A stretch of 64,000 nucleotides of DNA from a virus. The notes under the pieces are model-generated. The model saw only the letters and a program-made list of their open reading frames with translations, did no database searches and had not been told where the DNA came from. Shown one piece after another: positions 30,211 through 60,029 of the stretch. The stretch lies in the IMG/VR virus record IMGVR_UViG_3300027782_000034, positions 62,001 through 126,000 of that record; one strand, 5' to 3'. The translations under genes and the position numbers were made by a program. Numbering within the stretch: the first letter of the stretch is position 1; each line of letters begins with the position of its first letter.

Positions 30211-31533
30211 CTAAAGTCTTATCAGCTTGAACGGGTTTACCCCATCACACTTTGCATATTTGTTCTTAGTATCAAATATAAAGTTGGAGTGGGCTAACAC
30301 CATATCCCAGTCAATTATGTCATGGTCCGAAAGGATAATGCAGACAGCTTGCTCCTTTAATAGTATTGAGCTGAGAGTAGTTTCTCTCAATAATTCTAGA
30401 GCCAAGTCTGTCTTATCTACTAAAGGATCATACCATGTTACATCAAAACCTTCTCTGCAGAGCAAATCAAGGATTTCAAGCGCTGGCGAACCTCGAAGAT
30501 CTCCTACATTTTTTTTGTAGCTTATCCCAATCAATAATATAGGAAAGCTTTCATCAAAGCGGTGGGTGTAAAGTCCTAAGAACTCCACTAGCTTGCCTAC
30601 GATTACGCTTGGCCTCTTTTTGTTCAGTTCACACGCAAGACTAATAAGCTCAGCGTCTGAACCCATGCTCTGCAGCTTTTGAAGAAGGTAATAAGGGTCC
30701 ACAGGGATGCAATGACCACCAACACCCGGACCAGGATAAAACGCTTGAAAGCCAAAAGGCTTGGTTGCTGCGAGTTTAATCACCTCCCACACATCCAAAC
30801 CCAATTTATTACAAATATCAGCCCATTCGTTTGCAAGTGCGATGTTTACCGCACGATAGACATTCTCCATCATTTTAGAGGCTTCTGCTGCTTCCATGGA
30901 GCTTGCTTGATGCACCTCATCAAACAGCTGATTAAACAAAACTGAAGTCACTTTTTCCGAAGAGTCATTGAGTGCTCCAAAGACTCTAGGAAGCGTTCTC
31001 GTGGTAAATTTGGTATTGCCTGGATCTTCTCTTTCTTGGCTAAAGGCAAGAAAGAAGTTGCGATCCTCTTTCCTATCTTCTTCTAGAATGCTCAAGCCCA
31101 TAGACCGAGTGGTTCCGGGGAAGGATGTACTAGAGACCACAACCAAGAAAGGTGTTTTAGCTACTGTGCTTACTGCATTGATCGCATTATATAAGATATC
31201 TAGAGTAGGGGCACCATTTACCAAAGGAGTGGGGACACAAATCCAATAGACGGCACAAGGTTCTGCAGTAGCAATGTCTGAGGTTGCTTTAAACTTACCT
31301 GTGTTTAATAAGCTTTGCACCCTAGCTGCAGGAATGGTTTCTAAGTAGCTTTTCCCTTGTTGTAGGATTTCAACCTTGTTTGGGTCTATGTCGTAACCAA
31401 TGACATCAAACCCAGCACTGGCAATACACTCAGCAAGAGGTAGGCCAGCGTAGCCGAGACCTACCACCATCACTTTAGCTGTTTTTCCTTGAAGTTGAGT
31501 TATAAGCTGATCCAAAGCTTCATCAGTAGTCAT
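30211..31533 (-). CDS. UDP-sugar 6-dehydrogenase (UDP-ManNAc/UDP-glucose type)
   Basis: Oxidises a UDP-hexose to a UDP-uronic acid using NAD+. Seen: 440 residues, VMVVGLGYAGLPLAECIASA (NAD-binding, residues 21-40), VYWICVPTPL, SSTSFPGTTRS, YPGPGVGGHCIPVDPYYLLQ near residue 270 with the catalytic cysteine, and a C-terminal UDP-binding domain starting with FPILLIGISYKKNVGD. Known: this motif set defines the UDP-glucose/GDP-mannose dehydrogenase family; the GGHCIPVDPYY form is closest to UDP-N-acetyl sugar dehydrogenases such as WecC. Inferred: it supplies charged sugar for glycan assembly. Good AGGA site before the ATG. Confidence 0.9.
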   Translation of the reverse strand: MTTDEALDQLITQLQGKTAKVMVVGLGYAGLPLAECIASAGFDVIGYDIDPNKVEILQQGKSYLETIPAARVQSLLNTGKFKATSDIATAEPCAVYWICVPTPLVNGAPTLDILYNAINAVSTVAKTPFLVVVSSTSFPGTTRSMGLSILEEDRKEDRNFFLAFSQEREDPGNTKFTTRTLPRVFGALNDSSEKVTSVLFNQLFDEVHQASSMEAAEASKMMENVYRAVNIALANEWADICNKLGLDVWEVIKLAATKPFGFQAFYPGPGVGGHCIPVDPYYLLQKLQSMGSDAELISLACELNKKRPSVIVGKLVEFLGLYTHRFDESFPILLIGISYKKNVGDLRGSPALEILDLLCREGFDVTWYDPLVDKTDLALELLRETTLSSILLKEQAVCIILSDHDIIDWDMVLAHSNFIFDTKNKYAKCDGVNPFKLIRL

Positions 31534-35029: not shown

Positions 35030-35692
35030 TTACAGTCTCTTTAGCACTTCACGCACCAACGGATGGCGAAGCGACTCACCTTCAGTAAAAGTATGCGTGC
35101 ATGCGGTAGGCATAGGGGACAACCGCTGCATTACAGAGAGTATATCACAAGGTGTGTTGTCAGGGTTGTGTGGTCTAACATCTGTTTGCTCGGGATCGCA
35201 GGAGATGAGTACCTTAGAGTTGTTGCCCACCCTAGTCAAAAACATCTTAAGTTGGCTATAGGTTGCGTTTTGGGCCTCATCAAGGAACAAGACAGTGTCC
35301 TCGAAGGTATCGCCCCGCATATAGGCTAAGGGCTGAAACAATACAGCTTCCTCGGGCAGCTTATAGGTCAAGCGTTTGATCAATCTTCGGATAGGATCAA
35401 AGTAAGGAGATATCTTCTCCTCTACAGTGCCTGGTAAGAATCCTAGGGTATCACCCACCTCTACAATGGGCCTAACCACTAAGATTTGTTTCTTCTCACC
35501 AGCTAATAGCTCTTGTAGTGCACAAGCGAGGGCACAATGAGTTTTGCCTGTCCCAGCGGGTCCGGTCAAAAAGATAAGGTCATGAGTCGGGTAATCTTTA
35601 GCAACTTTGATCTGAGTAGGGTTAGCGGGCTTAAAGTGAAACACAGTCTCTTGCAATGATGTAGGTGTATTAGGTTTCTTCTTGCTGGCCAT
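35030..35692 (-). CDS. phoH: PhoH-like ATPase
   Basis: Seen: 220 residues if started at 35692 (MASKKKPNTP), eight bases after AAGGAG; the upstream in-frame TTG at 35710 is less likely. Walker A LTGPAGTGKTHCALACALQE (residues 42-61), Walker B TVLFLDEAQNATYSQLKMFL, then LISCDPEQTD. Known: this is the PhoH family, common in phages, often annotated phosphate-starvation inducible, with a helicase or RNA-related ATPase activity. The leader GACAAGGAGTC resembles a GGA-loop hairpin. Its role in the phage cycle is not defined. Confidence 0.88.
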   Translation of the reverse strand: MASKKKPNTPTSLQETVFHFKPANPTQIKVAKDYPTHDLIFLTGPAGTGKTHCALACALQELLAGEKKQILVVRPIVEVGDTLGFLPGTVEEKISPYFDPIRRLIKRLTYKLPEEAVLFQPLAYMRGDTFEDTVLFLDEAQNATYSQLKMFLTRVGNNSKVLISCDPEQTDVRPHNPDNTPCDILSVMQRLSPMPTACTHTFTEGESLRHPLVREVLKRL

Positions 35693-36149
35693 GGTAAGAC
35701 TCCTTGTCAAAGGTGAATTGTTTCCAAGGTCGGTATATTCGGTTTAAGTAATGAAAGCAGAGATAATCGTCACTAGATTGCGTACACACAGGGCGGTACA
35801 GCAACACTTCAGTCTTTGGCAATTGTATTAGTATGCAGTGCTCATGCCCCAGCATGCTGAACTTCTTAACCCAGTGACATAACGACTTTCTTTGCCCAGC
35901 TACTAGGTTCAAAGATAAGCAGTTAAATTCCGGATTTAAGTCACAGTGCCAACCATTACACACTAGGTCAGATAGCCCCTTAGAGCTCATGTCTTGAAGT
36001 GTAGCCTTCTGCCTACAGCGACTTATCTGCATTGCGACAGGCCATGCTGTCAGATGCGGTGCTGAAGCAATATCGGGGAGGGCTTTGGCTGTTTTCATAG
36101 TGCGTCTCATAAGATATGAGTCTACCCAAGACATGCCTAAATAGTACAC
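35670..36149 (-). CDS. Hypothetical protein, about 159 aa
   Basis: Not recognised. A cysteine/histidine-containing protein with SRCRQKATLQDMSSKGLSDL in the middle and a C-terminal YHGQQEET. No start has a clear ribosome binding site; 36149 (GTG) is the earliest, with ATG alternatives downstream. The end overlaps the phoH ribosome-binding region by 23 bases. Palindrome copy 7 lies inside and encodes DLNPEFN, in a different frame relative to the other coding copies. Possibly real, but weakly supported. Confidence 0.42.
   Translation of the reverse strand: MYYLGMSWVDSYLMRRTMKTAKALPDIASAPHLTAWPVAMQISRCRQKATLQDMSSKGLSDLVCNGWHCDLNPEFNCLSLNLVAGQRKSLCHWVKKFSMLGHEHCILIQLPKTEVLLYRPVCTQSSDDYLCFHYLNRIYRPWKQFTFDKESYHGQQEET
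35923..35940. repeat. Dispersed palindrome copy 7
   Basis: TTAAATTCCGGATTTAAG, coding for DLNPEFN. The reading frame is different from the NSG/KSG copies. Confidence 0.66.
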
Positions 36150-38298: not shown

Positions 38299-38868
38299 TC
38301 AAGTGCCTTTTCTAACTAACCAGCTAGTATCATTGAAAACAACATCTGGTGCTCCATAGATCTCATCTACAGCCTTATCCACATAACCTACCCAACCACC
38401 CCCATAATCATGCCCAGTGACAAACCCACCTCGGTTCACCACAACCCTATAATTCAATATGTCTCGTTTCACTTGTTCATACTGGTGCATGCCATCTATA
38501 TACACTACATCAAAGCAGTGCACTACCGGCTGATCTGCTATATCCTTAATAGCCTCGTCAGATGTTTTAATTATTAGTGTGTAGTTGGTGTACTTGCTCA
38601 TCCTTGCGCAAAATGCTTCATAGACTGTAGACATGGGAGAAAAGTAACAAACATAGTCTTGTGGGTCATAACTACCCTTATACGGATCAATAGTAGTTAC
38701 ATGTTTAAAGTGCTGACAAAAGATGGCTGTTGATTCCCCAGTATAAGCACCTATCTCTAACAGTCTCATGTTTTTAGTCGGAGATCTTCTGTTGATATAA
38801 GCTATCATATCTAGCAAACCTTGCTCTAACTCTTCACCTCTCATTTGAAAGATTTGAGATGTGCTCAT
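38299..38868 (-). CDS. SAM-dependent methyltransferase-like protein, second of a tandem pair
   Basis: Seen: 189 residues. MRLLEIGAYTGESTAIFCQH is the SAM-binding motif I, FDVVYIDGMHQYEQVKRDIL the acidic motif, and GGFVTGHDYGGGWVGYVDKA the C-terminal signature, characteristic of Methyltransf_24-type enzymes. It is clearly paralogous to the 38873 gene: the same motif order and wording. Known: methyl transfer to small molecules or sugars. Inferred: it arose by tandem duplication. The gene begins four bases from the previous stop. Confidence 0.82.
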   Translation of the reverse strand: MSTSQIFQMRGEELEQGLLDMIAYINRRSPTKNMRLLEIGAYTGESTAIFCQHFKHVTTIDPYKGSYDPQDYVCYFSPMSTVYEAFCARMSKYTNYTLIIKTSDEAIKDIADQPVVHCFDVVYIDGMHQYEQVKRDILNYRVVVNRGGFVTGHDYGGGWVGYVDKAVDEIYGAPDVVFNDTSWLVRKGT

Positions 38869-38872
38869 ACTA

Positions 38873-39436
38873 TTATACCTTTTCAGTTTTTCTTACTAAC
38901 CAGCTTGAGTCTCTAAATCTTACTTCAGGTTTGTTAAAGTTTTCAGATACAGCTTGGACAACACCAGTCCAGCGTTTGTTATAATCATGACCAGTTATAA
39001 ACCCGCCTACTTTTACAATTTTGCTGTAATTAATAATATCATTGTTTGCTTGCTCATACTGATGCGCACCATCTATGTAAATAACATCAAATTGCTGATC
39101 AGCTAGCTCAAGAATAGCTTCATCAGATTTTTTTTGTATTAGCCTATAGTTATCGTATTTTTGCATATTTTGACAAAATACTTCATACACCCTAGACATG
39201 GGAACTATATAACTAATTTTATTGCTGGGGTCATATCCATTAAGATAAGGATCAATTGTGATTACGCTTTTAAAATTCTCACAAAAGACAGATGTAGATT
39301 CCCCTGCATAAGCTCCTATCTCTACTAATGTCATTTCCTTAGTTGGAGCTATTTTGTTGATATAATCTATTAGTTCTTTAAGTCCTAAACCCTTCCTACC
39401 TCGTCTCAACCTAGGCAATTTCTGTGCAGAGTCCAT
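38873..39436 (-). CDS. SAM-dependent methyltransferase-like protein, first of a tandem pair
   Basis: Seen: 187 residues with TLVEIGAYAGESTSVFCENF (motif I), FDVIYIDGAHQYEQANNDII and GGFITGHDYNKRWTG, the same layout as the 38299 gene. Known: Methyltransf_24-type SAM enzymes. A divergent copy with a lysine-rich N-terminus (RLRRGRKGLGLKELIDYINK). Inferred: recent-to-moderate duplication followed by divergence. GAGG lies seven bases before the ATG at 39436. The hairpin at 39466-39502 precedes it and may be the terminator of the tubulin unit. Confidence 0.82.
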   Translation of the reverse strand: MDSAQKLPRLRRGRKGLGLKELIDYINKIAPTKEMTLVEIGAYAGESTSVFCENFKSVITIDPYLNGYDPSNKISYIVPMSRVYEVFCQNMQKYDNYRLIQKKSDEAILELADQQFDVIYIDGAHQYEQANNDIINYSKIVKVGGFITGHDYNKRWTGVVQAVSENFNKPEVRFRDSSWLVRKTEKV

Positions 39437-39465: not shown

Positions 39466-39502
39466 GAAACAAAATAGCGGGTTGAATTCGTTCAATCCCG
39501 CT
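39466..39502 (-). terminator. Candidate terminator after the tubulin-like operon
   Basis: On the minus strand an 11-bp stem (AGCGGG, bulged A, TTGAA paired with TTCAA and CCCGCT; CGAA loop) is followed by ATTTTGTTTCG. It lies right after the stop of the 39520 gene, which is the last gene of the tubulin-like unit. Confidence 0.65.
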
Positions 39503-39519: not shown

Positions 39520-39825
39520 CTAACTATTAAAGATTGCAATCGATGAATCTTGGCTCGCCATCTTACCAGCTACAGCCCCATCTACAGAGGCACTAGGACT
39601 GATTTGAAGACGCTGCCCATTGTTTAATTGTACCCCATAGTTGTTATCTACAGCAAATACTTCGCTAGGGCGATATTTGGCTAGATAGCTCTTTGCCCAG
39701 CTAACAAAAGCATCTGAAGAATCTTGAACACCTTCGGGAATCTTGATTTCTTTACGATATGCCGTAGTCAAGAAAGCAATCAAATCGGGAAGCTCTCCAG
39801 ATTTTCCGTTTATAACACTATTCAT
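39520..39825 (-). CDS. Hypothetical protein, 101 aa, partner candidate of the tubulin-like gene
   Basis: Not recognised. A small soluble protein with SGELPDLIAFLTTAYRKEI (residues 9-27) and a beta-like middle (FAVDNNYGVQLNNGQRLQIS). AAAGGA before the ATG at 39825. It begins 12 bases after the tubulin-like stop and is followed by a terminator-like hairpin, so the two genes probably form one transcription unit. Small genes next to phage/plasmid tubulins can be DNA-binding adaptors (TubR-like), but no helix-turn-helix is evident here. Confidence 0.62.
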   Translation of the reverse strand: MNSVINGKSGELPDLIAFLTTAYRKEIKIPEGVQDSSDAFVSWAKSYLAKYRPSEVFAVDNNYGVQLNNGQRLQISPSASVDGAVAGKMASQDSSIAIFNS

Positions 39826-39837
39826 ATCAATCCTTTC

Positions 39838-41133
39838 CTAATCATTCACACCGAGGAACTGAGCTAACCCACTGGTCAGCTGACTTTTGGAAATATTAGC
39901 TTCTTTTGCCAACTTTGCCAAGGTAGGCAAGGGTGGCTTAAGATCACTAATCATAGCATAAGCTTGTAACCCAGGCGACGAGCCAATGTACACACCCCTA
40001 TGCACCACACTAGTACCACCCTTCAATGTACGATTCATTTGCGTGAACCCTGCATCAAAGTACTCTAAACCGAGGCTGTCCAAGTGATGCTGATCACCTA
40101 CGAACAGACAAGCACCCTTGGTGCCTTGCTTTAAATCCACCTCAGCTAACACATTGTTAGTGAGCTGATCCCTAATCGCTGCAGAGATGTCTGCAGGGCT
40201 AGTGATGTTTTGTAAGCTGGCTGCACCCATCACACAGATACCATGATCCAGTAACTGAGCTAGCTCACTGCGATCAAAGGTGATTAAAGGGCTATGTACC
40301 GCAGCCAATTGATTAAACAAATGGAATAGCTGACTGACTGTGCTATTAGCCACATTGTACAGCTGTGCCATGCCTGGGCGATACAGTTGGTTAATGCGTG
40401 CATTGTCAATCAAGATTAATGGGCTTACTTTGAGCTCCATTAATCTTTGGAAGGATGTAACTGCATTGCGACATACTTGCTGACCTTCCGTAAAAGCCGG
40501 AATTGAAGCTATCACTCCAACTCGGGGTGGCTTGCCTTTTGACTCTAAGTACTCTCTAGCCACTTGTACCAGCTTACCGCTAGTACCAGAGCCAGTACCA
40601 CCACCTAGGCCAACACAGATTAAGCCATAGTCCACATCGTTGCCCCATGAACGTTGCAACAGATCCCAGATTTCCTCTTCGTGCCCATTTATGGCTTGTT
40701 CAGCAAACCTTGCATCTTTTGCAGCCCCACCCAATTGCAGCGTGTGTCGCTGAATCTCATCGGGTAAACCTTGGAAGTCGCTTTCTGCGGTATTGAATAA
40801 GGCCACTCGTCTATAGCCTAAGGACCAGAAGCTGGAGGCTAAGCGAGCACCGCCCTGCCCAGACCCCAGAAATGCCATGTTAAATGCGACATCATAAGGA
40901 AAGGCATCGTTTACCACTACTTGGGTTGCTGCTTGCTTATGGGCAGCAGGATTCAATGCTGCAGCGATGTTACCTATGTGCACAACACCGGGGGCTGCAA
41001 CTGGGGGTGCGATTGAAGGTGTGACAATAGGGGCAACCGGGGGAGCAACTGGAGGAGTGGCAATTGGCACACCCGATGCCTTGCTCAACGATGCCTTCAT
41101 TTGCTGTTCAATCGACCCATCTGAATTACTCAT
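39838..41133 (-). CDS. FtsZ/tubulin-family GTPase
   Basis: A filament-forming GTPase candidate. Seen: 431 residues. FNMAFLGSGQGGARLASSFW (near residue 79) and ALFNTAESDFQGL match the tubulin/FtsZ G1/NTxxxDL region. ICVGLGGGTGSGTSGKLVQV (near residue 172) contains the tubulin signature GGGTGSG, and FDRSELAQLLDHG near residue 285 resembles the T7 synergy loop with D/E. Known: PhuZ of jumbo phages centres DNA in the cell, and TubZ moves plasmids; this sequence has a longer proline/alanine-rich N-tail and resembles FtsZ/CetZ more. ACAAGGAT ribosome site before the ATG. Function in the phage is inferred. Confidence 0.82.
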   Translation of the reverse strand: MSNSDGSIEQQMKASLSKASGVPIATPPVAPPVAPIVTPSIAPPVAAPGVVHIGNIAAALNPAAHKQAATQVVVNDAFPYDVAFNMAFLGSGQGGARLASSFWSLGYRRVALFNTAESDFQGLPDEIQRHTLQLGGAAKDARFAEQAINGHEEEIWDLLQRSWGNDVDYGLICVGLGGGTGSGTSGKLVQVAREYLESKGKPPRVGVIASIPAFTEGQQVCRNAVTSFQRLMELKVSPLILIDNARINQLYRPGMAQLYNVANSTVSQLFHLFNQLAAVHSPLITFDRSELAQLLDHGICVMGAASLQNITSPADISAAIRDQLTNNVLAEVDLKQGTKGACLFVGDQHHLDSLGLEYFDAGFTQMNRTLKGGTSVVHRGVYIGSSPGLQAYAMISDLKPPLPTLAKLAKEANISKSQLTSGLAQFLGVND

Positions 41134-41158: not shown

Positions 41159-41749
41159 TTAAATAGAGGTTAGAAACTTATCTAACTTATTAAAATGCCT
41201 GTCCTTAACTTCTGCGTTTGTCATTGTGAAAACTTTACTAAACAATTTCAAGTGAGCATTATACCTATTATGATAACAATTACAGATAGATTTTATATAG
41301 TCGGAGGTAAATGAACTCTTTGTCCAACGTTCAATCATGGCTTTATCTTCTGCCTCTGTTGCTTGTATATCTATTACAACATTAGTTGTATTAGCCCACA
41401 AATCTAAAAATGGGGCTATCGTTGTTGCGGAAATAACAGCAGGGCTATCAAACTTTGCAATAAACTCAGATGGGCCCGGAAATGGTGGATCGTAATAAGT
41501 AGGAAGCTTATCACTTAAACAACTAACCCCATGTTTCTCACAAATACTTTCATGAATCTTCTGTGCTTCGTAATTTTGGAAGTCATGGTCATAGTAGAAA
41601 CGAATATGTGGCATTTCTATGTCTTGGTTGGGCCAGAGCACAGCCCAGCCAAAATTGTGCAAGCGTTTAGCCACATGATTAGTCCAAGCTCCGGGAGTAC
41701 CTGCTACTAACACATGCTTGGTCACACAAACTCGTTGCAAATGAACCAT
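41159..41749 (-). CDS. Possible P-loop/sulfotransferase-like protein (tentative)
   Basis: Seen: 196 residues. KHVLVAGTPGAWTNHVAKRL near residue 11 is a phosphate-binding-loop-like segment similar in placement to the sulfotransferase-like proteins here (ITGWSRGGLGYVAELL). The remainder is unclassified, with a helical C-terminus. Start: ATG at 41749 overlaps the previous gene by 28 bases; a GTG at 41725 overlaps its stop as GTGA and is an equally good start. Inferred: a nucleotide- or PAPS-binding protein. Confidence 0.5.
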   Translation of the reverse strand: MVHLQRVCVTKHVLVAGTPGAWTNHVAKRLHNFGWAVLWPNQDIEMPHIRFYYDHDFQNYEAQKIHESICEKHGVSCLSDKLPTYYDPPFPGPSEFIAKFDSPAVISATTIAPFLDLWANTTNVVIDIQATEAEDKAMIERWTKSSFTSDYIKSICNCYHNRYNAHLKLFSKVFTMTNAEVKDRHFNKLDKFLTSI

Positions 41750-42786
41750 TCAAAAGCTTTCTGTTTCTTGCGTATGTACTCTGCTGTAACTAATTGCATA
41801 GACTCCAGCAGCTCTGTGGGCACCTCAGCTAACTCTGATAAGGCGATTTCCACATCATCTAAAGACACTTCAGCAATAGGAGCGGGCTGCTCATCTAGCC
41901 CACACACAATTAACTTACCATTTGAATCATCTATTACATGGGCTCCTACTGGGGGAATGTCATGACAAGCCAAAACTGAAGAACTACTAACCAAGGCTGC
42001 CATCACAGATCCATAAGTATAACGAGTGCTAGCCATGTAAACCCAGTCATGCTGCCGTGCTAGATTACTGTAATCATAGTAAGGCGGGCTAGTCACACAA
42101 GCAACTCGATTAGGGTAAGCCTGCTGCAAGTTTTTGATATCTGTACGATATCTGCGGGGCATGGAATGTTCTAACAAAAAAGTAAATCTAGTCCCACTGT
42201 AATTGTCTAAAAGTGAATAAAATATGTCGAGTAGCTCTGGCCCTAAATCTAATTTTACTGATTTAGATACGACAATTAAGAATTTTTGTATGCCAGGCTG
42301 TACCCAACCACTCTTCGGAGACAACAACTTATCTGAAACCACTAAGTTAGCCCAAGTGCGGTTAGGCAACACTTTACCTTGATGCTTGTCTAACCAGTTA
42401 GATAAGTCATGACTTAAACAAATGACTCGATCCGCCATTTTCAAGAATATTGAGTTATATTCATTCCACATACCCCAATAAGGAAAATAGTAATGAAGAG
42501 TCTGATACTTTGGGCTGAATGAACTTACCAACTTAGCTTCTTGTAATGCCCATAGGTTAGGACTGAACCAGCATAGATGTGTTGCTTGAAAAGCCCAATG
42601 GTGAATTGAGTCTTCATTTGCTCGCTTAACCTTGTTATCCCATACTGGGTGAATACCTTTTGAGACTTTGCCATCAGCTAGGAACTCTACTTCAATGCCA
42701 CAACGTATTAACCAATCTGCTATCTGCACAGCTGCTAAAGTGGTTTCATTGCGAACATAAGGTGCAAAAATTCCAACTTTAAGCAT
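41722..42786 (-). CDS. Glycosyltransferase (GT-B type)
   Basis: Seen: 354 residues with the start moved to 42786 (MLKVGIFAPY), six bases after AGGAG. LKVGIFAPYVRNETTLAAVQ begins the N-terminal Rossmann domain; WYVYMASTRYTYG-like and VMAALVSSSSVLACHDIPPV near residue 285 form the C-terminal nucleotide-sugar domain with GxHxxxD (VGAHVIDD). Known: GT4-like enzymes use two Rossmann domains. The acceptor is unknown. It overlaps the neighbouring P-loop-like gene at its end. Confidence 0.7.
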   Translation of the reverse strand: MLKVGIFAPYVRNETTLAAVQIADWLIRCGIEVEFLADGKVSKGIHPVWDNKVKRANEDSIHHWAFQATHLCWFSPNLWALQEAKLVSSFSPKYQTLHYYFPYWGMWNEYNSIFLKMADRVICLSHDLSNWLDKHQGKVLPNRTWANLVVSDKLLSPKSGWVQPGIQKFLIVVSKSVKLDLGPELLDIFYSLLDNYSGTRFTFLLEHSMPRRYRTDIKNLQQAYPNRVACVTSPPYYDYSNLARQHDWVYMASTRYTYGSVMAALVSSSSVLACHDIPPVGAHVIDDSNGKLIVCGLDEQPAPIAEVSLDDVEIALSELAEVPTELLESMQLVTAEYIRKKQKAFEWFICNEFV

Positions 42787-42805
42787 GATAACTCCTAGGC
42801 TTGAA

Positions 42806-43534
42806 TTATCTGTTTGAGTGCGACACATGATGGAAAAATTTACATTTACGAGGTTGCTCTGGGATTAGACTATAATTTTGATTATATTTCCACATCACAT
42901 AATTAAAACTTAACTGATCTCTATAGCTGTTCTGCGTAATTTCATTCCACCAATGGTTATTAAACTCAGCTGCTTCCTTTCCTTGTTTGCGTATCAAACA
43001 ACCTGTTTCAACTAGACCATTGTAAGCGGGATAATTCTCTTTTTGATATTTTGCAATCTGTTGCTGCATTAATGTTTTGTTATCTTTTTTTAACTTTATG
43101 CACATGTTTAATTCTTGATAAATACAATTACGCTCATAATGTTTAAACGCAGCCACGAAATTGTCACCTAATAATGGCAACATATTTTTAGCTAGTTCCA
43201 TATTTTCTTTGATAACTTGAGTACCATCCATCCATATAGTGTGTGTTATTTCATCTTCGCAAAAAATGTGAGGGTTAATTTTGCAAAAACGAGCTGTGCG
43301 TCTTTTACAAAAAGGATGTTCCCAAACTAAAGGTTTAATTTGCCAAAGAATATTTCCATTTGGAACCTGATATTGCAAACAATTTTGATTTGTTTTTACA
43401 GCATTTTTAATTATTTGATCGGTGTATAATACATATACTGCATCTTTTTCCATTGGAGCCATTGAAGACAATACGCCTTTTGTAGCGTCTTCGAAGTCAC
43501 CTGCAATACAGCTGTAAATTAATGTTTTAGTCAT
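42806..43534 (-). CDS. Glycosyltransferase-like protein (DUF616/TOD1 type)
   Basis: Seen: 243 residues from the ATG at 43534, which overlaps the previous stop as ATGA; the longer frame to 43549 is less likely. TARFCKINPHIFCEDEITHT then IWMDGT, and later SYRDQLSFNYVMWKYNQNY and KCKFFHHVSHSN. Known: DUF616 (TOD1/MUCI70) proteins share RxxKxxPHxxF, WxDG and a RDQxSF...FxHxxH ending. Inferred: a GT-A-like glycosyltransferase with a catalytic histidine-rich C-terminus. Coupled with the GT2 gene at 43531. Confidence 0.72.
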   Translation of the reverse strand: MTKTLIYSCIAGDFEDATKGVLSSMAPMEKDAVYVLYTDQIIKNAVKTNQNCLQYQVPNGNILWQIKPLVWEHPFCKRRTARFCKINPHIFCEDEITHTIWMDGTQVIKENMELAKNMLPLLGDNFVAAFKHYERNCIYQELNMCIKLKKDNKTLMQQQIAKYQKENYPAYNGLVETGCLIRKQGKEAAEFNNHWWNEITQNSYRDQLSFNYVMWKYNQNYSLIPEQPRKCKFFHHVSHSNR

Positions 43535-44328
43535 GCTTGTCGATACCATTTTCCTTTCTTATATTTGTCTCCTCTAGAGACAGACCGATAATGAAAAATA
43601 AAAGTGCTCAAAGCAATTCCAGATTTCATACCTTTTTTAGCCCATCTTCCTTGCAGTTCATCTTCATTCCCGACCATCGTGGGAGTTGGGATAACTTTTC
43701 CTTTAGATGTATATTTGTTTTTAGGTCTGAAAAAATGATGTTCGTCAAATTTTCCATTATTCCATGATTCTACAGTTGCCATTAGGAAAAACCCATTAAC
43801 ACTGCGTTCTAAAACTTCGTTAAAATGCAATTGCTGCAATTGGGCTGCGACCTTATTTACCTCTATCAAATTATCGGTGAGCTGGTAATTAGGCACATAT
43901 AACTCTATATTTTGCTTGCCTTTCGCTGTAACTCCAGGTGCGTTAGAAGTTGGGCCTACTAACGAATAACCATTGGCTAACGCATGTATCATTCCTTTAT
44001 GCCAACCATCTGAGAAAATTATGTCATTATTACCAGCAATGGCATAGTCTAAGTTGAGTTCCGCAGCTTTAGCCAACCCCGCATTCCAGCTTCGGGTTAG
44101 GCCACCAGATGTGTAAAATTTTAAAATGTATAAAGAAACAATAGGATAACTATCTGCTAGCTTTAATAAAGATTGCTCATAAGCATCACTCCACCCGGCT
44201 GAACCATCGTTTACAACGATAGCTACACCATCTGGAGTAGTATCAAAAAAAGATTTTAAAGCTTTTTGCGTATAATTTGCAAAAACCGTAGCATTGTACA
44301 CAGGGCAAATAAACCCAATTTTTGGCAC
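43531..44328 (-). CDS. Glycosyltransferase family 2-like
   Basis: Seen: 265 residues. KIGFICPVYNATVFANYTQK at the N-terminus, VAIVVNDGSAGWSDAYEQSL and GGLTRSWNAGLAKAAELNLD, then YAIAGNNDIIFSDGWHKG (DxD-like NND). VNGFFLMATVESWNNG is typical of GT2 acceptor/donor regions. Known: GT2 enzymes are metal-dependent GT-A. The start is GTG at 44328 with weak AAGAAAG. It overlaps the next gene by four bases. Palindrome-like copy 12 is inside (encodes MKSGIA). Confidence 0.75.
   Translation of the reverse strand: MPKIGFICPVYNATVFANYTQKALKSFFDTTPDGVAIVVNDGSAGWSDAYEQSLLKLADSYPIVSLYILKFYTSGGLTRSWNAGLAKAAELNLDYAIAGNNDIIFSDGWHKGMIHALANGYSLVGPTSNAPGVTAKGKQNIELYVPNYQLTDNLIEVNKVAAQLQQLHFNEVLERSVNGFFLMATVESWNNGKFDEHHFFRPKNKYTSKGKVIPTPTMVGNEDELQGRWAKKGMKSGIALSTFIFHYRSVSRGDKYKKGKWYRQA
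43612..43629. repeat. Dispersed palindrome-like copy 12 (weaker)
   Basis: AGCAATTCCAGATTTCAT, keeping only the core CAATTCCAGATTT of the element; encodes MKSGIA on the minus strand. Confidence 0.4.
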
Positions 44329-44339
44329 GATCTTTCTTT

Positions 44340-46235
44340 TTAACCTCCGCCACCTTGCTGCAGCTGTTGCTGCAACATAGCTCCGCCCTGTGCTTTCATC
44401 TTCTGGCGAGCTTCGTCTAGCTTGGTGCGCGTAATCGAATGCAGCGTAGCATTATTTTGCTTAAGTTTACGCAGTTCTGAATCTTTGATTGATTCAGGAA
44501 TGCCTAACAACTCTTGAGCTAGCTGTTCTGCGGTTGATTGTAAGTCATTAGGGGTAATAGCTGCATTTGGACCCATTGATTGCAAATAAGTGGTAACAGG
44601 CGTTGGAACACCACCACCAAGCGCACCACCAGCACCCGCTGGGGCAGGACCGCCACCGGCTGGAGGAGCACCACCAGCGGGAGGAGCACCCGCCCCAGCT
44701 TCTGGATTAACACCTTTAGATACTTGTGCAGCGAATCCAGCTTGCTCTGCTTCTTCAGCTTGTCGAGCTTGCATCTTTTGCTGTTTGCTTGCTTCTTCTG
44801 CGAGTAGCTTCTGTTCGGAATCCCAACTATAACCCATAGCACGAAGCCCTGTTGTGCCAGACAACTGCTGACCCATCATTAACTGCAACGCAGCCATTTG
44901 TTTCTGCATATCATCTGCAGTGGTAACTCTCTGTAAGCTACACTCTACAGATTCCCAAGACATAATTTGACTAAGGGTAGTAACCATCCACTGCAAGAAA
45001 GTGTTTGCATCTGTAACTAACTGACGATGGGTGCTTTCAAAAAGGCGAAGAGCCACAGGTGCAGCTTGTAGCGACAAAGAACCTTGATAGAACTCTACAG
45101 GAGTACCACACTCATTTAATAGTTCTTCAGTGCCTTGCTGTATCAACTCTGTAGGAGCTAGCTGTTTAGCGTCACCACCAAGGATCTGATAATTGACTGG
45201 GAAAGGCAGAAGCTGCCAAGCTGCTGGATCCCGTCTGCGTCTATTGATCATTTGTCTAACTTGAGAGCGGAAGTCCCCCGCTGAGTAAATAGACATCGGG
45301 TCTTGTGTGGCTACGCTACCTGCATTAGAACCACCACTGCGTGCAGCGGGAGTGATTAGACGGAATGGAATAACATAGTCCAAGGCAATTGCTTCGTTGT
45401 ATCTACGAAGAACCTGTACATACCATATTTGACGATAGTTGGTTAAACTGCGGGGAAGACCCCAGCCAAGGTTGCGGATACCTGCCAAAGTTGGCTCTTT
45501 CATGTGAAAGACAGCATCTGGGTTGAACCTAAACAATTTGTCTGTGCGAATAGCTTCAAGGACTTGTTTACTCGCTCGTTCTAAATGAAACAGATTTCCA
45601 TCTTTTACCATTTTCTTATAGTACTCGGGGATACGCCACAAGTAGGCAACTTCATCCGTATATGGATCATGTAAAATTTCTATCTCATGAGGACTCCATC
45701 GCTTTAGAATCACATGTTTAGATTCTTCTCTTGCCTTGTCTTCTACGATCCAAGCACCACGCCATTTAGTTTTTGGGCAAGTGGCTTCAAACTTAAAGTC
45801 TTCTGTAAACTTAAAATCAAAGTTATCAAATACATACTTGAGTGGGTAGATATCCCCAGTTTTTGGATTACGCAGAAATCTACGAAATGGAACAACTACG
45901 CTAGCAAAGGAATTACCATAACAAAGACGGTCTCGCATAAGCTGACCAAGAAAAGCTAATACATTTAATTGTTTATTTAAAAAATCAGAATATTTAGTTT
46001 TCTCGTCATCGCTTACATCGCCACCTATCTCAATATCTGTGATGAAATAGCTGACAATGCGTTCCATTGCCATGCGGTAGGTACCTTGCACCGTCCAAAT
46101 GTATTCAGACCACCACAGTGCCGACTTCATAGTAGTCGGCATCTGCGTAGTGGCTATGTCATTGAAAGGGTCAGCAAAACCAGTGTTAGTGGTGCTACGA
46201 TTAAAGAATGGGCTGCCCGAAGACATCATTGACAT
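44340..46235 (-). CDS. Portal protein
   Basis: Forms the DNA channel at the capsid vertex. Seen: 631 residues. The N-terminal half has a portal-like fold (EYIWTVQGTYRMAMERIVSY, YGNSFASVVVPFRR, HEIEILHDPYTDEVAYLW). The middle has QVLRRYNEAIALDYVIPFRL, characteristic of phage portals, and near residue 385 an LLNECGTPVEFYQGSLSLQA segment. The C-terminus is proline/alanine/glycine-rich after a helical glutamine-rich region. Known: these features resemble large-phage portals. Good GGGGGA site. Terminase, capsid and tail genes are outside this window. Confidence 0.75.
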   Translation of the reverse strand: MSMMSSGSPFFNRSTTNTGFADPFNDIATTQMPTTMKSALWWSEYIWTVQGTYRMAMERIVSYFITDIEIGGDVSDDEKTKYSDFLNKQLNVLAFLGQLMRDRLCYGNSFASVVVPFRRFLRNPKTGDIYPLKYVFDNFDFKFTEDFKFEATCPKTKWRGAWIVEDKAREESKHVILKRWSPHEIEILHDPYTDEVAYLWRIPEYYKKMVKDGNLFHLERASKQVLEAIRTDKLFRFNPDAVFHMKEPTLAGIRNLGWGLPRSLTNYRQIWYVQVLRRYNEAIALDYVIPFRLITPAARSGGSNAGSVATQDPMSIYSAGDFRSQVRQMINRRRRDPAAWQLLPFPVNYQILGGDAKQLAPTELIQQGTEELLNECGTPVEFYQGSLSLQAAPVALRLFESTHRQLVTDANTFLQWMVTTLSQIMSWESVECSLQRVTTADDMQKQMAALQLMMGQQLSGTTGLRAMGYSWDSEQKLLAEEASKQQKMQARQAEEAEQAGFAAQVSKGVNPEAGAGAPPAGGAPPAGGGPAPAGAGGALGGGVPTPVTTYLQSMGPNAAITPNDLQSTAEQLAQELLGIPESIKDSELRKLKQNNATLHSITRTKLDEARQKMKAQGGAMLQQQLQQGGGG

Positions 46236-52663: not shown

Positions 52664-53574
52664 GACTTCCTTTCAATGTCTGCACATGTGATACATATCC
52701 CAATATGATCTATTTCTGCAGGGTTAAAAAAACTTAACTGATTACACCTTTTACACTTACCCTTTTTATAAGTTAATAGATGCGTTGCCAACGCACAATT
52801 ATCAGTACCATAAGGGCAACGAAAACATTCGTGTGTCTCTGGAAATCCTTTCAAGCAGGGTGTCTGACTTCTATCTCTCGCCACAATCAGTTGACGATTG
52901 TGCGTCATTGTAGCATGACTGTGTCCAATTTCTATTACAAAAGGGTCTTGCTGTGAGCGTTTTGGATCAAGTAGTAGAAAACACTGTAACCCATAAAATT
53001 GCTGCAAATCAGAGTACAACCCTTGGTTACGCTGTTCCCCTCTACTGTTTATGCGGGACCTATTAAACCCAAAACCTAATCCCTTCGCATTACGGTAAGT
53101 TGCCAAATACTGTGTTTTTTTGAAAGACCAAGTTTGCGTTAACTTTTTAGGCACTACAGTTCCTGCTAGGCTTTGAAAAGTAAAAGCATTTACAAATTGT
53201 TTAGATTGCTTATGTGTACATACATCACATATGCGCGCCGGAATCCACTCGAAACACGCTTGATGTAACCATTGCGTAACAGGTCGTTGGCAAGCTAGTG
53301 CGGGTAAATTACCGGCCATCCGCCAACAAGTAGCTACCAATAGCGGACGAGTCAGCTCTCTACCTACTAAGCTTTTAACGCTGGCATATACCGTAGTTTT
53401 AAGAATGTTGTCCGGTAAGGCAGTATGTAGCTGTGACACAAAAGAAGCAAAATTAGGGCCTACTAATGTAGTGCTTATAAAAGAGGCCAAAGTACCTATT
53501 AGCCTATCTCGAGTCGCCAGCACCCGCTTAATTGACATCTCCGGTAAAGGAGGATGTTCTTCTGCAATAGTCAT
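52660..53574 (-). CDS. Cysteine-rich zinc-ribbon-like protein, 304 aa
   Basis: Not recognised as a family. Near the middle, RICDVCTHKQ; near the C-terminus, CFRCPYGTDNC and CKRCNQLSFFNPAEIDHIGI followed by CITC. These give at least two CxxC-type metal-binding sites. The N-terminus contains RDRLIGTLASFISTTLVGPN, a hydrophobic region. Possibly a nucleic-acid- or metal-binding protein. GGAGGAG before the ATG, overlapping the previous stop as ATGA. Confidence 0.62.
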   Translation of the reverse strand: MTIAEEHPPLPEMSIKRVLATRDRLIGTLASFISTTLVGPNFASFVSQLHTALPDNILKTTVYASVKSLVGRELTRPLLVATCWRMAGNLPALACQRPVTQWLHQACFEWIPARICDVCTHKQSKQFVNAFTFQSLAGTVVPKKLTQTWSFKKTQYLATYRNAKGLGFGFNRSRINSRGEQRNQGLYSDLQQFYGLQCFLLLDPKRSQQDPFVIEIGHSHATMTHNRQLIVARDRSQTPCLKGFPETHECFRCPYGTDNCALATHLLTYKKGKCKRCNQLSFFNPAEIDHIGICITCADIERKS

Positions 53575-54389
53575 TCAACTCCTCCTTTTTCATATCTAGT
53601 TATTTTTAAATTAAATGCTTGATGTTCAAGCGAGGGGGTAACATTACCATCTTTCCAAAGAGTTTGTTCAGAGGTTTTACCTATCCCCCGTCTACCATTT
53701 CTACCCCCGACATTGATCCTAACTACTGCATGTAGTTTTATGTAATTTTTAAGACAACTATCGCAACAGCATTGCACTCCTTTATGAAACTCACCTACGC
53801 TGCCACCTTGCTGCCTTATCAACTCTCCTAAAATAGAATCGCCACCATTATGGTATAAGTCTGCAAAAGGATAATCCCATTTAGCTAAAAATGCAGTATC
53901 TGCAACCCACCAACCACCTGTGGCAAATAAATATAGGCTACGGTTGTTAAATGGTTTTCCAGTAAACCAAGGCTGTTTAGCAATTACTTCATACTGAAGA
54001 CCTTGCTGCGGCATTTTATGTAAAGATCCAATTTGAGTATGATGCTGGCTCATTGCTAAAGCTTTATCCCACCAATCCGTGTAAGTTGCGTCTAAAAAAC
54101 TATCATCATCAAACCACATTGTCTTAGGTGCTAACTGTCTATCTTTAAACATCTGTCGCATTAAAGGATACTTACCTAAGTTTTTTCCTTGTTCTTCTTC
54201 GTAAATATAAACGGGACAACTACGCATTTGTTTTGTTGCCCAACCTTCTACATATTCTTTAGTTTCCCTACTAACTGCATTTAAACCGAGACGAATATCT
54301 TGTATATGTGCGGTATATCTAAAAGAACTTAACAAATCTTTCGCCAGATTTGGGTAATCTCCATACAGAAGTGCACACACAGAAAACAT
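53571..54389 (-). CDS. Glycosyltransferase (GT-A type)
   Basis: Seen: 272 residues from 54389 (MFSVCALLYG), seven bases after AAGGAG. SVCALLYGDYPNLAKDLLSS starts the fold; KTMWFDDDSFLDATYTDWWD near residue 105 carries the DxD motif and RSLYLFATGGWWVADTAFLA near residue 155 the acceptor-side helix. A cysteine cluster (QCCCDSC) follows. Known: GT-A enzymes are metal-dependent. Inferred: addition of a sugar to a surface glycan. It follows the terminator at 54422-54456. Confidence 0.7.
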   Translation of the reverse strand: MFSVCALLYGDYPNLAKDLLSSFRYTAHIQDIRLGLNAVSRETKEYVEGWATKQMRSCPVYIYEEEQGKNLGKYPLMRQMFKDRQLAPKTMWFDDDSFLDATYTDWWDKALAMSQHHTQIGSLHKMPQQGLQYEVIAKQPWFTGKPFNNRSLYLFATGGWWVADTAFLAKWDYPFADLYHNGGDSILGELIRQQGGSVGEFHKGVQCCCDSCLKNYIKLHAVVRINVGGRNGRRGIGKTSEQTLWKDGNVTPSLEHQAFNLKITRYEKGGVE

Positions 54390-54421
54390 AAATAACTCCT
54401 TTAGATAATAGCTAAAAAAAA

Positions 54422-54456
54422 GGCCCACAGTGTTAATACTGTGAGCCTTTTTATTT
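54422..54456. terminator. Bidirectional rho-independent terminator
   Basis: GGCCCACAGT (54422-54431) and ACTGTGAGCC (54438-54447) form a stem with one mismatch and a 6-base loop. On the plus strand it is followed by TTTTTATTTT, and on the minus strand by a run of seven T's. It sits just downstream of the 54466 stop codon. Confidence 0.85.
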
Positions 54457-54465
54457 TAGCTATTG

Positions 54466-55404
54466 TTAGCGGGGTGACCGGCCTCTTAACTGCCTTTTCG
54501 CTGGAGCTTCGGGCAATTCAATTATCTCAGGTAGCTCATCAAGTTCTTCAACTGATTTCTTAGCAGCTAAAGCCATTACATTCTTACTTAATGGAAGCTG
54601 AGCTTGCTTAATCAACACACTCTGGGAACGCTCAAGCACTTTGGAAAGCTTTTCCATTGTGCTGATTAATTGGTTCTTAGTCTTACCAATACGCTCCATC
54701 GTGTTCTTAATGTTGCTCACAAACTGCTCAGACACTTCTTGTGGTGGCATTTCCATGAACATGCCATCAAGAGGCTCAGCTACTGCTTCCAAGTAGTTAT
54801 CAGCTAGCTGGATGGTAGTGTAGATCTTCTGGAGCATCGCTACAGGTGTTCTTGGTAACTTAGGCTTGCGACCACCGGACCGCTTTACTTCAGCTTCCTT
54901 ATTACCCTGCAATTCAAGTGCAAGCTCATTTGCGGATAAGCATTCTCTTCGCACTTGCTTAAGCAATGCCAACTGTCGCTTTTCTGAACCAACCTTCTGC
55001 AATTCTTTGAAGTGATTCCATGTCAGATAGCCACCATTAGACATCTTTTCTTCAACCTGTGCTTTAACAAAGTCACGGGTGAACGCAGCAGAAACATTGG
55101 AAAGATCATAGATCGTAGCTGGGGTAAGCGTTGGTAAATTCCAATACGCTGCCAGCTTTCTTATCTCAGTCTTTTTCTGTGCCTCATTTAAATGCTCTTG
55201 GTTGAGCAGATTTAAGACTGATGTGCCAATATCATGCTGTACTAACAGTGCAACTTGAAATCCTACTTGGAGCTTCTTTCCCACCTCTAAAGCAATTGCT
55301 TGCGTTGTTGGGTCCATCTCCGAAAAGATGGCTTCTCTATCTTCCTGTTTCTTTACATCTAACCTTACTAACTTGTTTGGTGTCACTGATTTTGTCTTAC
55401 TCAT
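54466..55404 (-). CDS. DUF1016-N/YhcG-like winged-helix protein (tentative)
   Basis: Seen: 312 residues. IALEVGKKLQVGFQVALLVQ and, near residue 140, GGYLTWNHFKELQKVGSEKR then LLKQVRRECLSANELALELQ resemble the DUF1016 N-terminal region (LSWSHYxxL...ELxxQI), without the nuclease domain. The C-terminus is helical with a basic tail (KRQLRGRSPR). Known: YhcG-type proteins are fused to PD-(D/E)XK nucleases and bind DNA. Inferred: a DNA-binding adaptor. Palindrome copy 10 overlaps its ribosome-binding region; the terminator follows its stop. Confidence 0.5.
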   Translation of the reverse strand: MSKTKSVTPNKLVRLDVKKQEDREAIFSEMDPTTQAIALEVGKKLQVGFQVALLVQHDIGTSVLNLLNQEHLNEAQKKTEIRKLAAYWNLPTLTPATIYDLSNVSAAFTRDFVKAQVEEKMSNGGYLTWNHFKELQKVGSEKRQLALLKQVRRECLSANELALELQGNKEAEVKRSGGRKPKLPRTPVAMLQKIYTTIQLADNYLEAVAEPLDGMFMEMPPQEVSEQFVSNIKNTMERIGKTKNQLISTMEKLSKVLERSQSVLIKQAQLPLSKNVMALAAKKSVEELDELPEIIELPEAPAKRQLRGRSPR

Positions 55405-55414
55405 AGTGCGTTCC

Positions 55415-55432
55415 TTAAAATCTGGATTTTAA
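55415..55432. repeat. Dispersed palindrome copy 10
   Basis: TTAAAATCTGGATTTTAA, ending ten bases before the ATG at 55404; the right-hand TTTTAA merges with the Shine-Dalgarno AAGGA on the minus strand. Confidence 0.76.
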
Positions 55433-55434
55433 AC

Positions 55435-55989
55435 TTATTCTTTCCATGCGAGAACATCTCGTACATGGTCGATGAATCCACTGTACGGCTGTACAATTAG
55501 ATTCATCTCTCTCTTTTTACCGCTTTTAAAAATATGGCAGCTGGCTTGCAGCGGTGCGAACAATTCCCAGTCACCATTATGAATCAACAATCCTTGTAGG
55601 AAACCCTTCCGTGGGAACACCATACCAATAGGGCGATCTGGGTACTTTGCTAGCAAAGGTTCCAGTTGTTCTTCGTAGCGTTCCACAAAGGGAAGCCCAC
55701 GAAAAGCTTTAAACCAAAAAGGATGAATAGTTCTAGGGTCTCGATGAATTGGAGGAACATTTAATAATGGTTCCGCAAATAAGTACATCGGGAAATTAAC
55801 TACTTGATTATAGGCTTCAAAAGAATAGTAAGGTCCTAGATCTAAGATTTCTTTTCGTTTCTTCTCTAACTTTAATCTTCGTAAAGTCCATTCTACTCGA
55901 TTAGATTCCCATTGTTTACCATGTGTATCCACTTGCTCAAACTTAGCGATCTTGCTGAGCAGTGGATTTAATGGGTTTATCTTATCCAT
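55435..55989 (-). CDS. Hypothetical protein, 184 aa
   Basis: Not recognised. Lysine-rich N-terminus (RVEWTLRRLKLEKKRKEI) and aromatic/proline-rich C-terminal half (FFKAFRGLPFVERYEEQLEP-like). No enzymatic motif. GGAG before the ATG; it immediately follows the RecA-like stop. A recombination accessory factor is possible from position only. Confidence 0.62.
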   Translation of the reverse strand: MDKINPLNPLLSKIAKFEQVDTHGKQWESNRVEWTLRRLKLEKKRKEILDLGPYYSFEAYNQVVNFPMYLFAEPLLNVPPIHRDPRTIHPFWFKAFRGLPFVERYEEQLEPLLAKYPDRPIGMVFPRKGFLQGLLIHNGDWELFAPLQASCHIFKSGKKREMNLIVQPYSGFIDHVRDVLAWKE

Positions 55990-55992
55990 GGG

Positions 55993-57426
55993 TTACTCCG
56001 CTGATTTTATGTGTTTAGCCACAATCTCATCATACGGTCTGTCTAGCTGATACCTGCGTTTAATATTCAAGGCATCTCTGATGCCATCGCATACTTTAGG
56101 ATTATCTTGAATAAGTTGCCCAACTTCTTGAAAAGGCAGATATTCATCTTTACCCATACCAATTGCTCTAAAGTTTGCTAAGCATTCAACATCAGCAGCT
56201 GGAGACTTACATTTAATTACTAGCTCTCGATCCGTCAACCTTACTTTATGAATTCCATCCATTTCATTCAGCAAGGTACACAATGCCCAGTTCCAGTCCC
56301 ATAGGAACATATCACGAGGGTGACCTGTTTCGGGTTCATCTTCGATCCACCATAGGAACCTAGTTTTAAGCGCACGACCTGTGGGACCAAATGAGTTCTT
56401 AGCACAATGGATTTTAATGCCTAACCCTTCAAACTGTGCGTTTTTAAACTTAGATCTCCACACCGAATTTCGAAGCTCAAAGCTTTCATGGAAGTTAAAG
56501 CTTTGGCCACCCAAGGTATACTGGTGAGCATTACCTCGATCATCTGTTTTTTCCTTAAGATGATTAACAATCAAAAGAGTGAAGGGCCAGTTCTCAAACT
56601 GCTTTTTGATGCCAGTTAAGTAGTGAGTATTCTTCAATGCATTGATTGGGTGAGTTCGCCCTGCATTACCTTCCTTGATAATTTTCTCTTGAATCTCTTC
56701 AGAAGTTGCACCAGCAAGAGAGTCAATGCAAAAACAACATGGTATGGTTTTGCCTGGGCCAGGCTCAGTAGCAGTACCTACCAGCATCTGCTGCACTTCC
56801 CTTAAATAATGCGTAAGGATCTGCTGCATCTGTTCTACAGAGTTTGCTCGGTTAGATAAGATTGGAATAGCATCTCGTTCCACACGCATGATGTCGCATG
56901 CAAAATCTGCATCAAATTTATCTTCGGTATCGATATGTACCGCTAACCCTCGCTGCTCGTAGAACCAACGAAAGAACTCATAAGCCAACGCAGACTTACA
57001 ACTACCCCAGCTACCCGCAAGCATCATCACGCTTGACAGCGGGAACACATCATTGGCAATCAAGTATTCAAATGCCAAGGAAGGAGTTGGGATACCAATT
57101 GCCAATTGTCCTAACTCTTCTCGTGAACCAAACACTCGATCTGCTCCAAATTTATCTCGAGCGGTTGAGAATAAAGTATTCATCATCTCATTACGGCTTT
57201 CCCCGCTCTTCTCTCTAGACCAGCGTGCTCGTAAAGTGTCTTTACCTTTGTTAGTAAGCTTAACCCCACCGGACAAACCTATAATCTTTTTCTTCGGTTC
57301 AGTGTCTTTGTTGCTCGGAGTAGGCACATCAATTTTAGCTTCTTTAAGTTTAACTTTTGATTTCTTTGCAGGTTGAATTGGCGGATTTAAAACCGAGTCT
57401 AGCAAGTCATCTGTCTCATCTGACAT
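55993..57426 (-). CDS. RecA-like recombinase ATPase with altered P-loop
   Basis: Seen: 477 residues from 57426 (MSDETDDLLD), five bases after GAGGAG. A Lys/Pro-rich N-terminus precedes the ATPase core. Walker A reads LAGSWGSCKSALAYEFFRWF near residue 136, so the usual GxGK[ST] is GSCKS; Walker B is CCFCIDSLAGATSE. LGGQSFNFHESFELRNSVWR follows. Known: RecA/UvsX family ATPases bind single-stranded DNA and exchange strands; the Lys and Ser of the loop are retained. Inferred: a phage strand-exchange protein. Sits next to the candidate SSB and the polymerase. Confidence 0.75.
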   Translation of the reverse strand: MSDETDDLLDSVLNPPIQPAKKSKVKLKEAKIDVPTPSNKDTEPKKKIIGLSGGVKLTNKGKDTLRARWSREKSGESRNEMMNTLFSTARDKFGADRVFGSREELGQLAIGIPTPSLAFEYLIANDVFPLSSVMMLAGSWGSCKSALAYEFFRWFYEQRGLAVHIDTEDKFDADFACDIMRVERDAIPILSNRANSVEQMQQILTHYLREVQQMLVGTATEPGPGKTIPCCFCIDSLAGATSEEIQEKIIKEGNAGRTHPINALKNTHYLTGIKKQFENWPFTLLIVNHLKEKTDDRGNAHQYTLGGQSFNFHESFELRNSVWRSKFKNAQFEGLGIKIHCAKNSFGPTGRALKTRFLWWIEDEPETGHPRDMFLWDWNWALCTLLNEMDGIHKVRLTDRELVIKCKSPAADVECLANFRAIGMGKDEYLPFQEVGQLIQDNPKVCDGIRDALNIKRRYQLDRPYDEIVAKHIKSAE

Positions 57427-57455
57427 AACCACTCCTCAGATAAAATTACATAGAA

Positions 57456-57488
57456 AATAAGAGTGAGGCTGATAACCCCACTCTTATT
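57456..57488 (-). terminator. Terminator after the 57509 gene
   Basis: AATAAGAGTG (57456-57465) and CACTCTTATT (57479-57488) form a perfect 10-bp stem. On the minus strand TTATTTTCTATG follows. It lies between the 57509 stop and the recA-like start. Confidence 0.7.
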
Positions 57489-57508
57489 GAAATTAACAGT
57501 AGTGCCAA

Positions 57509-59353: not shown

Positions 59354-60029
59354 GATTAAAACCTTTCAAAAGTGAAACAACACGGGTGTGTATCTCATTG
59401 CCAATTACCGCAATTGACAAAAGTTGAGAAACACCCATACAGTCAACTACTTCAAACTTAGTCTTCGGATGATAATCCATTAAATCCGATGTGTAGAAAG
59501 ATCTAACTTTCTCTAGATACACTTCATCTTCTTCGTGAAGATCTTTCGGTTTAGCAGTGTACCCACGGACATTTTTTTGTGCAATGTTTTTTATTGCAAA
59601 AGATGTGGGAACATCCAAAAAAAACATTATGTCTGGAACTGGCATCTGCCATAAGCCATATTCCAATTTAACAAAATGCTTGATTAATTCATCTCGTTCT
59701 CCTTCCTCCGTCTTCATTGCGGAATAACACAATGCTGAAGGTATGTAACGATCTGCAATAACCACATCGTTATTTTTAATTAACGATTCTAGGTATGATT
59801 TGGACTCGTAGCGGTCAATGGAAAATAAAGTGCTGTGTAGGTAAGGATGTGTGTTTTTTCCAAAATCACCATTCAGATACCGACCAACTAACTTTCCATA
59901 AAGAGTATCTGTGTACCTAGGAAAACTAATCGTTGCAACAGTCAAACCTGCTTCCTGCAGGCTTGACTGCAATACCTTGGTTACAGATCCTTTGCCCGAT
60001 CCATCAATACCTTCAATTACTACAAACAT
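59346..60029 (-). CDS. tmk: Thymidylate kinase
   Basis: Phosphorylates dTMP to dTDP. Seen: 227 residues. P-loop FVVIEGIDGSGKGSV (residues 2-16), ISFPRYTDTLYGKLVGRYLN, the DRY-type VVIADRYIPSALCYS (near residue 88) and FFLDVPTSFAIKNI. Known: these are thymidylate-kinase motifs; the P-loop arginine is replaced by a KGS form. Inferred: provides dTTP for replication with nrdJ. AAGGAG before the ATG. Confidence 0.9.
   Translation of the reverse strand: MFVVIEGIDGSGKGSVTKVLQSSLQEAGLTVATISFPRYTDTLYGKLVGRYLNGDFGKNTHPYLHSTLFSIDRYESKSYLESLIKNNDVVIADRYIPSALCYSAMKTEEGERDELIKHFVKLEYGLWQMPVPDIMFFLDVPTSFAIKNIAQKNVRGYTAKPKDLHEEDEVYLEKVRSFYTSDLMDYHPKTKFEVVDCMGVSQLLSIAVIGNEIHTRVVSLLKGFNHA

Follow-up and report, generated by a model that had tools for sequence, protein, structure and literature searches.

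The tubulins known from bacteriophages are PhuZ, which is associated with the phage nucleus, and TubZ, which is associated with the partition of episomes, and an overview of jumbo phages recognises two phage tubulin types (PMC7824862). PhuZ filaments bring capsids to the site of packaging; the protein is dispensable and is absent from one third of its family (PMC12908238, PMC10299810). Homologues of PhuZ are also mentioned in a survey of huge phages (PMC7162821). The gene described here belongs to a further clade found only in viruses. It lies in a window of 64,000 nucleotides, which is the whole stretch of DNA that was analysed and corresponds to bases 62,001-126,000 of a 172,719-base virus record in IMG/VR.

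The gene occupies 39838-41133 on the minus strand, encodes a protein of 431 amino acids (P0001) and is the sole match in the virus record to the Pfam Tubulin family (PF00091, 43 bits, the cut-off being 33). An earlier note, made from the letters alone, had recognised an FtsZ/tubulin-like GTPase here with intact GGGTGSG, FNTAESDF and T7-loop motifs, all of which can be seen in the sequence. The T4 signature GLGGGTGSG (residues 175-183, codons at 40585-40611, minus strand) contains glycines 178, 179, 181 and 183, which are invariant among 77 distinct relatives together with N114, D119, N223, D243, N244 and N263. The T7 loop TFDRSELAQLLD (residues 285-296, codons at 40246-40281, minus strand) carries the acids D287, which is invariant, and E290, a position held by either D or E. 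Since T1, T3 and T4 are conserved in this set of sequences and every one of the 77 has either D-x-x-E or D-x-x-D in its T7 loop, P0001 is predicted to be an active GTPase. An AF2 model of the protein (with 21 family members; mean pLDDT 77.8, pTM 0.76) gives a two-domain tubulin fold, in which a GTPase domain that includes the T7 loop (residues ~80-296) is followed by a C-terminal domain (residues ~297-400) and then by a conserved C-terminal helix and tail. Block pLDDT values are mostly above 80 over the core (residues 80-400) and below 50 over residues 1-73, and the proline-rich N-tail to which the note had drawn attention (residues 1-75, pLDDT below 50) is predicted to be disordered. P0001 is thus a tubulin/FtsZ-superfamily GTPase with a predicted tubulin fold and, by analogy with the superfamily, it probably forms filaments. 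The gene is under strong purifying selection, comparison with that of the related virus L004 giving a dN of 0.008, a dS of 0.28 and a dN/dS of 0.027.

Among described tubulins the best match by both profile and fold is TubZ, the type III partition tubulin of plasmids and phages (PDB 2xka, 4ei7), with E values of 4e-22 for the family profile and 1.3e-22 for a Foldseek comparison of the P0001 model with the PDB. The archaeal protein CetZ, which has a role in cell shape, comes second in both (4e-17 and 6.6e-21), followed by FtsZ (from ~5e-19 in Foldseek); the c-st TubZ is matched by the profile at 4e-10, and PhuZ is absent from the top 50 Foldseek PDB matches. TMt values to TubZ, CetZ and FtsZ are ~0.7-0.8. 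P0001 shares with TubZ a tubulin core with a D-x-x-E T7 loop, but it differs in sequence (~20% identity), in its long proline-rich N-tail and in its position within a portal operon. It has an acidic T7 loop in common with CetZ, but identity is again ~20% and CetZ is a cellular rather than a phage protein. The likeness to FtsZ consists of a common superfamily, the T4 signature GGGTG[ST]G and the T7 acids.

Relatives of P0001 were collected by successive pattern scans of IMG/VR with ever larger alignments, which yielded 18, 33 and finally 251 contigs, and the family is present in at least 251 viral contigs there. A near clade shows 48-99% identity and includes contigs of 150-235 kb amongst its members, and a far clade shows about 36-41% identity. 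No cellular relative was found by two scans of the genomes of 84,980 species, scans which need conserved peptides and which distant cousins could escape. Matches to the family amongst cultured phages and plasmids were confined to phage G (22%) and one Pontibacillus plasmid (25%) respectively. In a tree that has long branches, and in which the rows for CetZ, Bacillus cereus TubZ and archaeal FtsZ are partial sequences from PDB alignments, near and far viral sequences unite in a single clade (99/96, starred), PhuZ forms a separate clade on a long branch (100/100) and the viral clade adjoins an FtsZ+CetZ clade (100/96) with unstarred support of 90/83. A grouping of the viral clade with FtsZ is rejected by the AU test (p 0.019); the corresponding values are 0.34 for a clade with TubZ, a grouping absent from the tree itself, and 0.32 for a clade with PhuZ, so that neither of these two is rejected. 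Because the viral tubulins have a clade of their own and the AU test rejects FtsZ they constitute a separate lineage, as the earlier note had suspected. The same note's remark that the protein looks closer to FtsZ/CetZ is only partly right, as the tree agrees with it at unstarred support and TubZ comes first in the profile and fold comparisons. Contamination by a host FtsZ gene is ruled out by the surrounding phage genes, by the AU test and by the pattern scans. Such genes have been seen before, since databases hold relatives that are unnamed or named 'FtsZ': BFVD A0A6J5RW92 ('FtsZ', uncultured Caudovirales phage) and phrog_17961 (unknown function) are likely relatives with automatic annotation only and 26% identity to P0001, and P0001 itself gave no match to phrog_17961. 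Searches of open-access papers turned up only PhuZ and TubZ and yielded no account of the clade, so that the family is apparently undescribed as such.

An important consideration in attempting to establish what this protein does is its near-constant portal neighbourhood, which the earlier note overlooked. A portal protein gene (44340-46235, minus strand), which matches the portal gp204 of Salmonella phage Arash (24% identity over 72%, E 1e-38; phmmer E 1.4e-48), heads a run of seven co-directional genes in which it is followed by three glycosyltransferase genes, a gene for a 196-aa protein, the tubulin gene and a small gene. The four accessory genes that separate portal from tubulin (41159-44328, minus strand) keep their order in close relatives; the GT2-like, TOD1/MUCI70-like and GT4-like glycosyltransferases have Pfam matches, two of them below the curated cut-off, and the 196-aa protein has no Pfam match. 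The glycosyltransferase trio (41722-44328, minus strand) stays with the portal gene in relatives with or without tubulin. Gaps in the run are between -28 and +25 nt, the tubulin gene starting 25 nt past the upstream stop, and this spacing rules out the proposal that the tubulin gene and its neighbour have a transcription unit of their own. The small gene is followed by 83 nt containing a terminator-like hairpin with a U-rich tail (39476-39502, minus strand; -18.4 kcal/mol over a 71-nt stretch, z -2.9), which had been noticed before and which is borne out here, though a simple consensus terminator scan did not list it. Promoter-like sites are not enriched in the region (29, compared with 26.7 in shuffles). 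The most economical reading of this arrangement is a single transcript from the portal gene, or from farther upstream, to the hairpin.

The small gene (39520-39825, minus strand) encodes a 101-aa protein, P0002, which has no Pfam or PHROG match and no known domain, and for which the structure model is of low confidence (pLDDT 70) with no fold match. It had been taken for a partner of the tubulin gene, and both open reading frames are indeed present, but the small gene is also found at 22 related portal loci lacking tubulin. An iterated P0002 profile matches 59 near-type portal loci (those in which the portal is akin to that of the window) and no far-type ones. Of the 45 near-type portal loci for which 6 kb or more of downstream sequence is available, all had the small gene and only 23 had tubulin, and for this reason P0002 is regarded as the product of a core gene of the portal locus in this phage lineage and not as a tubulin partner. 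Identity to the L004 virus is 57% for the small gene compared to 98% for tubulin, and the rank correlation with portal distances (Spearman) is 0.81 for tubulin and 0.35 for the small gene. A tubulin-partner cassette is thus ruled out, as loci devoid of tubulin retain the small gene and the two genes do not diverge in step.

The association with portal genes extends to both viral clades. A portal gene lies upstream of tubulin in 44 of the 49 loci whose upstream sequence extends to 6.5 kb or more, 21 of these being near-type, with the portal 1.8-4.1 kb away, and 23 far-type; amongst all far-type tubulin loci the portal is within 70 nt in 39 out of 49. The far-type loci show a run of terminase, portal and tubulin genes with probable head genes downstream. 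We infer that the far-type protein is a portal from its place after a confirmed terminase, its length and a weak match (E 0.03) to YonE of SPbeta, which we take to be a portal protein. Homology of the two portal families was tried by profile comparison and is unsupported (hhalign E 0.089, probability 0.6%), and searches of the PDB with profiles of the near portal, the far portal and a capsid candidate gave nothing significant. The far-type portal, exemplified by L105:5879-7903, occurs in at least 597 viral contigs and has no match among cultured phages; the group consists of abundant uncultivated tailed phages. One record, G011 (66,748 bases), holds two equal-score Tubulin matches (locus L112) in opposite orientation near its two ends, which might reflect an inverted repeat at the termini or an artefact of assembly. 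On the tree of near portals the presence and absence of tubulin requires four changes, which fits vertical inheritance with one gain and a few losses, and when nine records of tubulin-free near relatives were searched eight had no Tubulin match whatever and the ninth had a sub-threshold one only. Tubulin is found at 11 of 50 far-type portal loci, a proportion which indicates that packaging does not need it. The tubulin gene is accessory in both portal lineages.

The virus itself is an uncultivated large phage and belongs to an Arash-like lineage of large phages with few cultured members. It has portal, terminase, capsid, helicase and RNA polymerase genes in common with Arash (180.8 kb), the matches including terminase (E 1e-53), capsid (E 9e-34) and RNA polymerase subunits (E 5e-85 and 7e-52), and Arash has no recognisable tubulin. 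The Terminase_6N profile is silent in the genome of the window, but the Arash terminase does find a homologue there. The multisubunit RNA polymerase is confirmed by profile (RNA_pol_Rpb1_5); its genes, akin to Arash gp206/gp216, are at bases 52788-59997 of the record, outside the window. Several other genes lie downstream of the tubulin run, all on the minus strand. A tandem Methyltransf_24 pair (38299-39436) has a common 150-nt repeat of 74% identity and its copy number differs between relatives, and nearby is an acyl-carrier-protein-like open reading frame (37636-37367; PP-binding, Pfam E 6e-9), which is unusual for a phage. A 235-aa open reading frame (36955-36248) with a CXXCH haem-type motif (CMSCH) and no Pfam match is possibly a cytochrome-like protein. 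Genes for UDP-glucose dehydrogenase and a PhoH-like protein are at 30211-31533 and 35030-35710.

There is about an even chance, in our judgement, that P0001 is a GTP-binding, filament-forming tubulin of a viral-only clade that positions procapsids and/or DNA for packaging. As an accessory gene of a portal, and hence head morphogenesis, operon it would probably be expressed late, together with the portal, because that is the operon in which it sits. The filaments would then most likely position or move procapsids, by way of the portal vertex, and/or replicating phage DNA, leading to efficient packaging. Such a role would resemble the capsid-trafficking half of that of PhuZ, in phages where no nuclear shell could be detected. 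By analogy with PhuZ, inheritance with the portal combined with dispensability would fit a task in positioning heads or DNA. Against a role in packaging it must be said that the near-type run includes glycosyltransferases as well, for which a part in packaging is not obvious, and that the best structural match, TubZ, is a filament for DNA segregation. Gene order by itself does not prove that tubulin and portal function jointly.

The main rival is a partition system of the TubZ type, in which the filament would segregate an extrachromosomal phage genome in a carrier or pseudolysogenic state by means of a DNA-bound adaptor. TubZ heads the profile and fold matches, a joint clade gave an AU p of 0.34 and one far member, L118, matches a TubZ-like C-terminal domain barely over the cut-off. 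However, no TubR-like adaptor was recognised among the neighbours of P0001, though a very divergent one could have escaped notice; on plasmids genes of ~100 aa precede tubZ, whereas P0002 comes after the tubulin gene, occurs without it and has a low-confidence model with no fold match. No tubC-type iteron array was found in the surrounding 10 kb (36.2-46.6 kb), no tyrosine integrase was found in the genome of the window and the tubulin gene is within a portal operon. Partition is, on balance, improbable, if less so than the readings that follow.

It is unlikely that P0001 interferes with the host, binding to or co-assembling with FtsZ to stop division such that the infected cell stays large. 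The GTPase core and T7 loop are FtsZ-like and the accessory pattern with losses could be expected of such a protein, but the invariant T7 acids and nucleotide site exceed the needs of a decoy, constraint is very strong and the gene is co-inherited with the portal. A position outside the PhuZ clade rules out plain membership of PhuZ, though a sister relation is not rejected, and it is similarly doubtful that P0001 is a highly divergent form of PhuZ which serves a phage nucleus with an unrecognised shell protein. P0001 resembles PhuZ, the spindle tubulin of Chimalliviridae, in being phage-encoded, accessory and present in phages with a multisubunit RNA polymerase, and a clade with PhuZ gave an AU p of 0.32. 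It differs, however, in that PhuZ has its own long-branched clade and in the lack of the PhuZ C-terminal domain PF22334, which gave no match at E 1 in the genome of the window but 1.7e-37 with phiKZ PhuZ. The chimallin profile phrog_4795, positive in six out of six PhuZ phages, found nothing in this genome and 11 relatives, records which may be incomplete, and the portal linkage seen here has no counterpart at phiKZ phuZ, near which there is no portal-annotated gene. A virion component, packaged with or docked on the portal and acting during ejection or at an early stage in the next cell, is very improbable, for although the gene abuts that of the portal in the far clade and the extended N-tail could serve as an adaptor, the conserved polymerisation and hydrolysis residues would better fit a cytoplasmic filament.

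The positioning of procapsids and/or DNA can be extended, more tentatively, to the suggestion that these proteins form a third class of phage tubulin devoted to the handling of heads and portals, in which filaments co-expressed with the portal would carry procapsids to the packaging site or anchor them there, with no nuclear shell, the tubulin having been gained or retained in at least two separate lineages of tailed phages; we think this possible rather than probable. The clade adds deep branches to the tree of the tubulin superfamily, and a portal-linked tubulin provides a directly testable case of cytoskeletal transport of phage heads. The occurrence of a portal-tied clade in hundreds of environmental contigs, with no chimallin detected, suggests that the distribution of phage cytoskeletons is wider than that of the nucleus-forming phages, and that these cytoskeletons did not evolve solely in the service of the nucleus.
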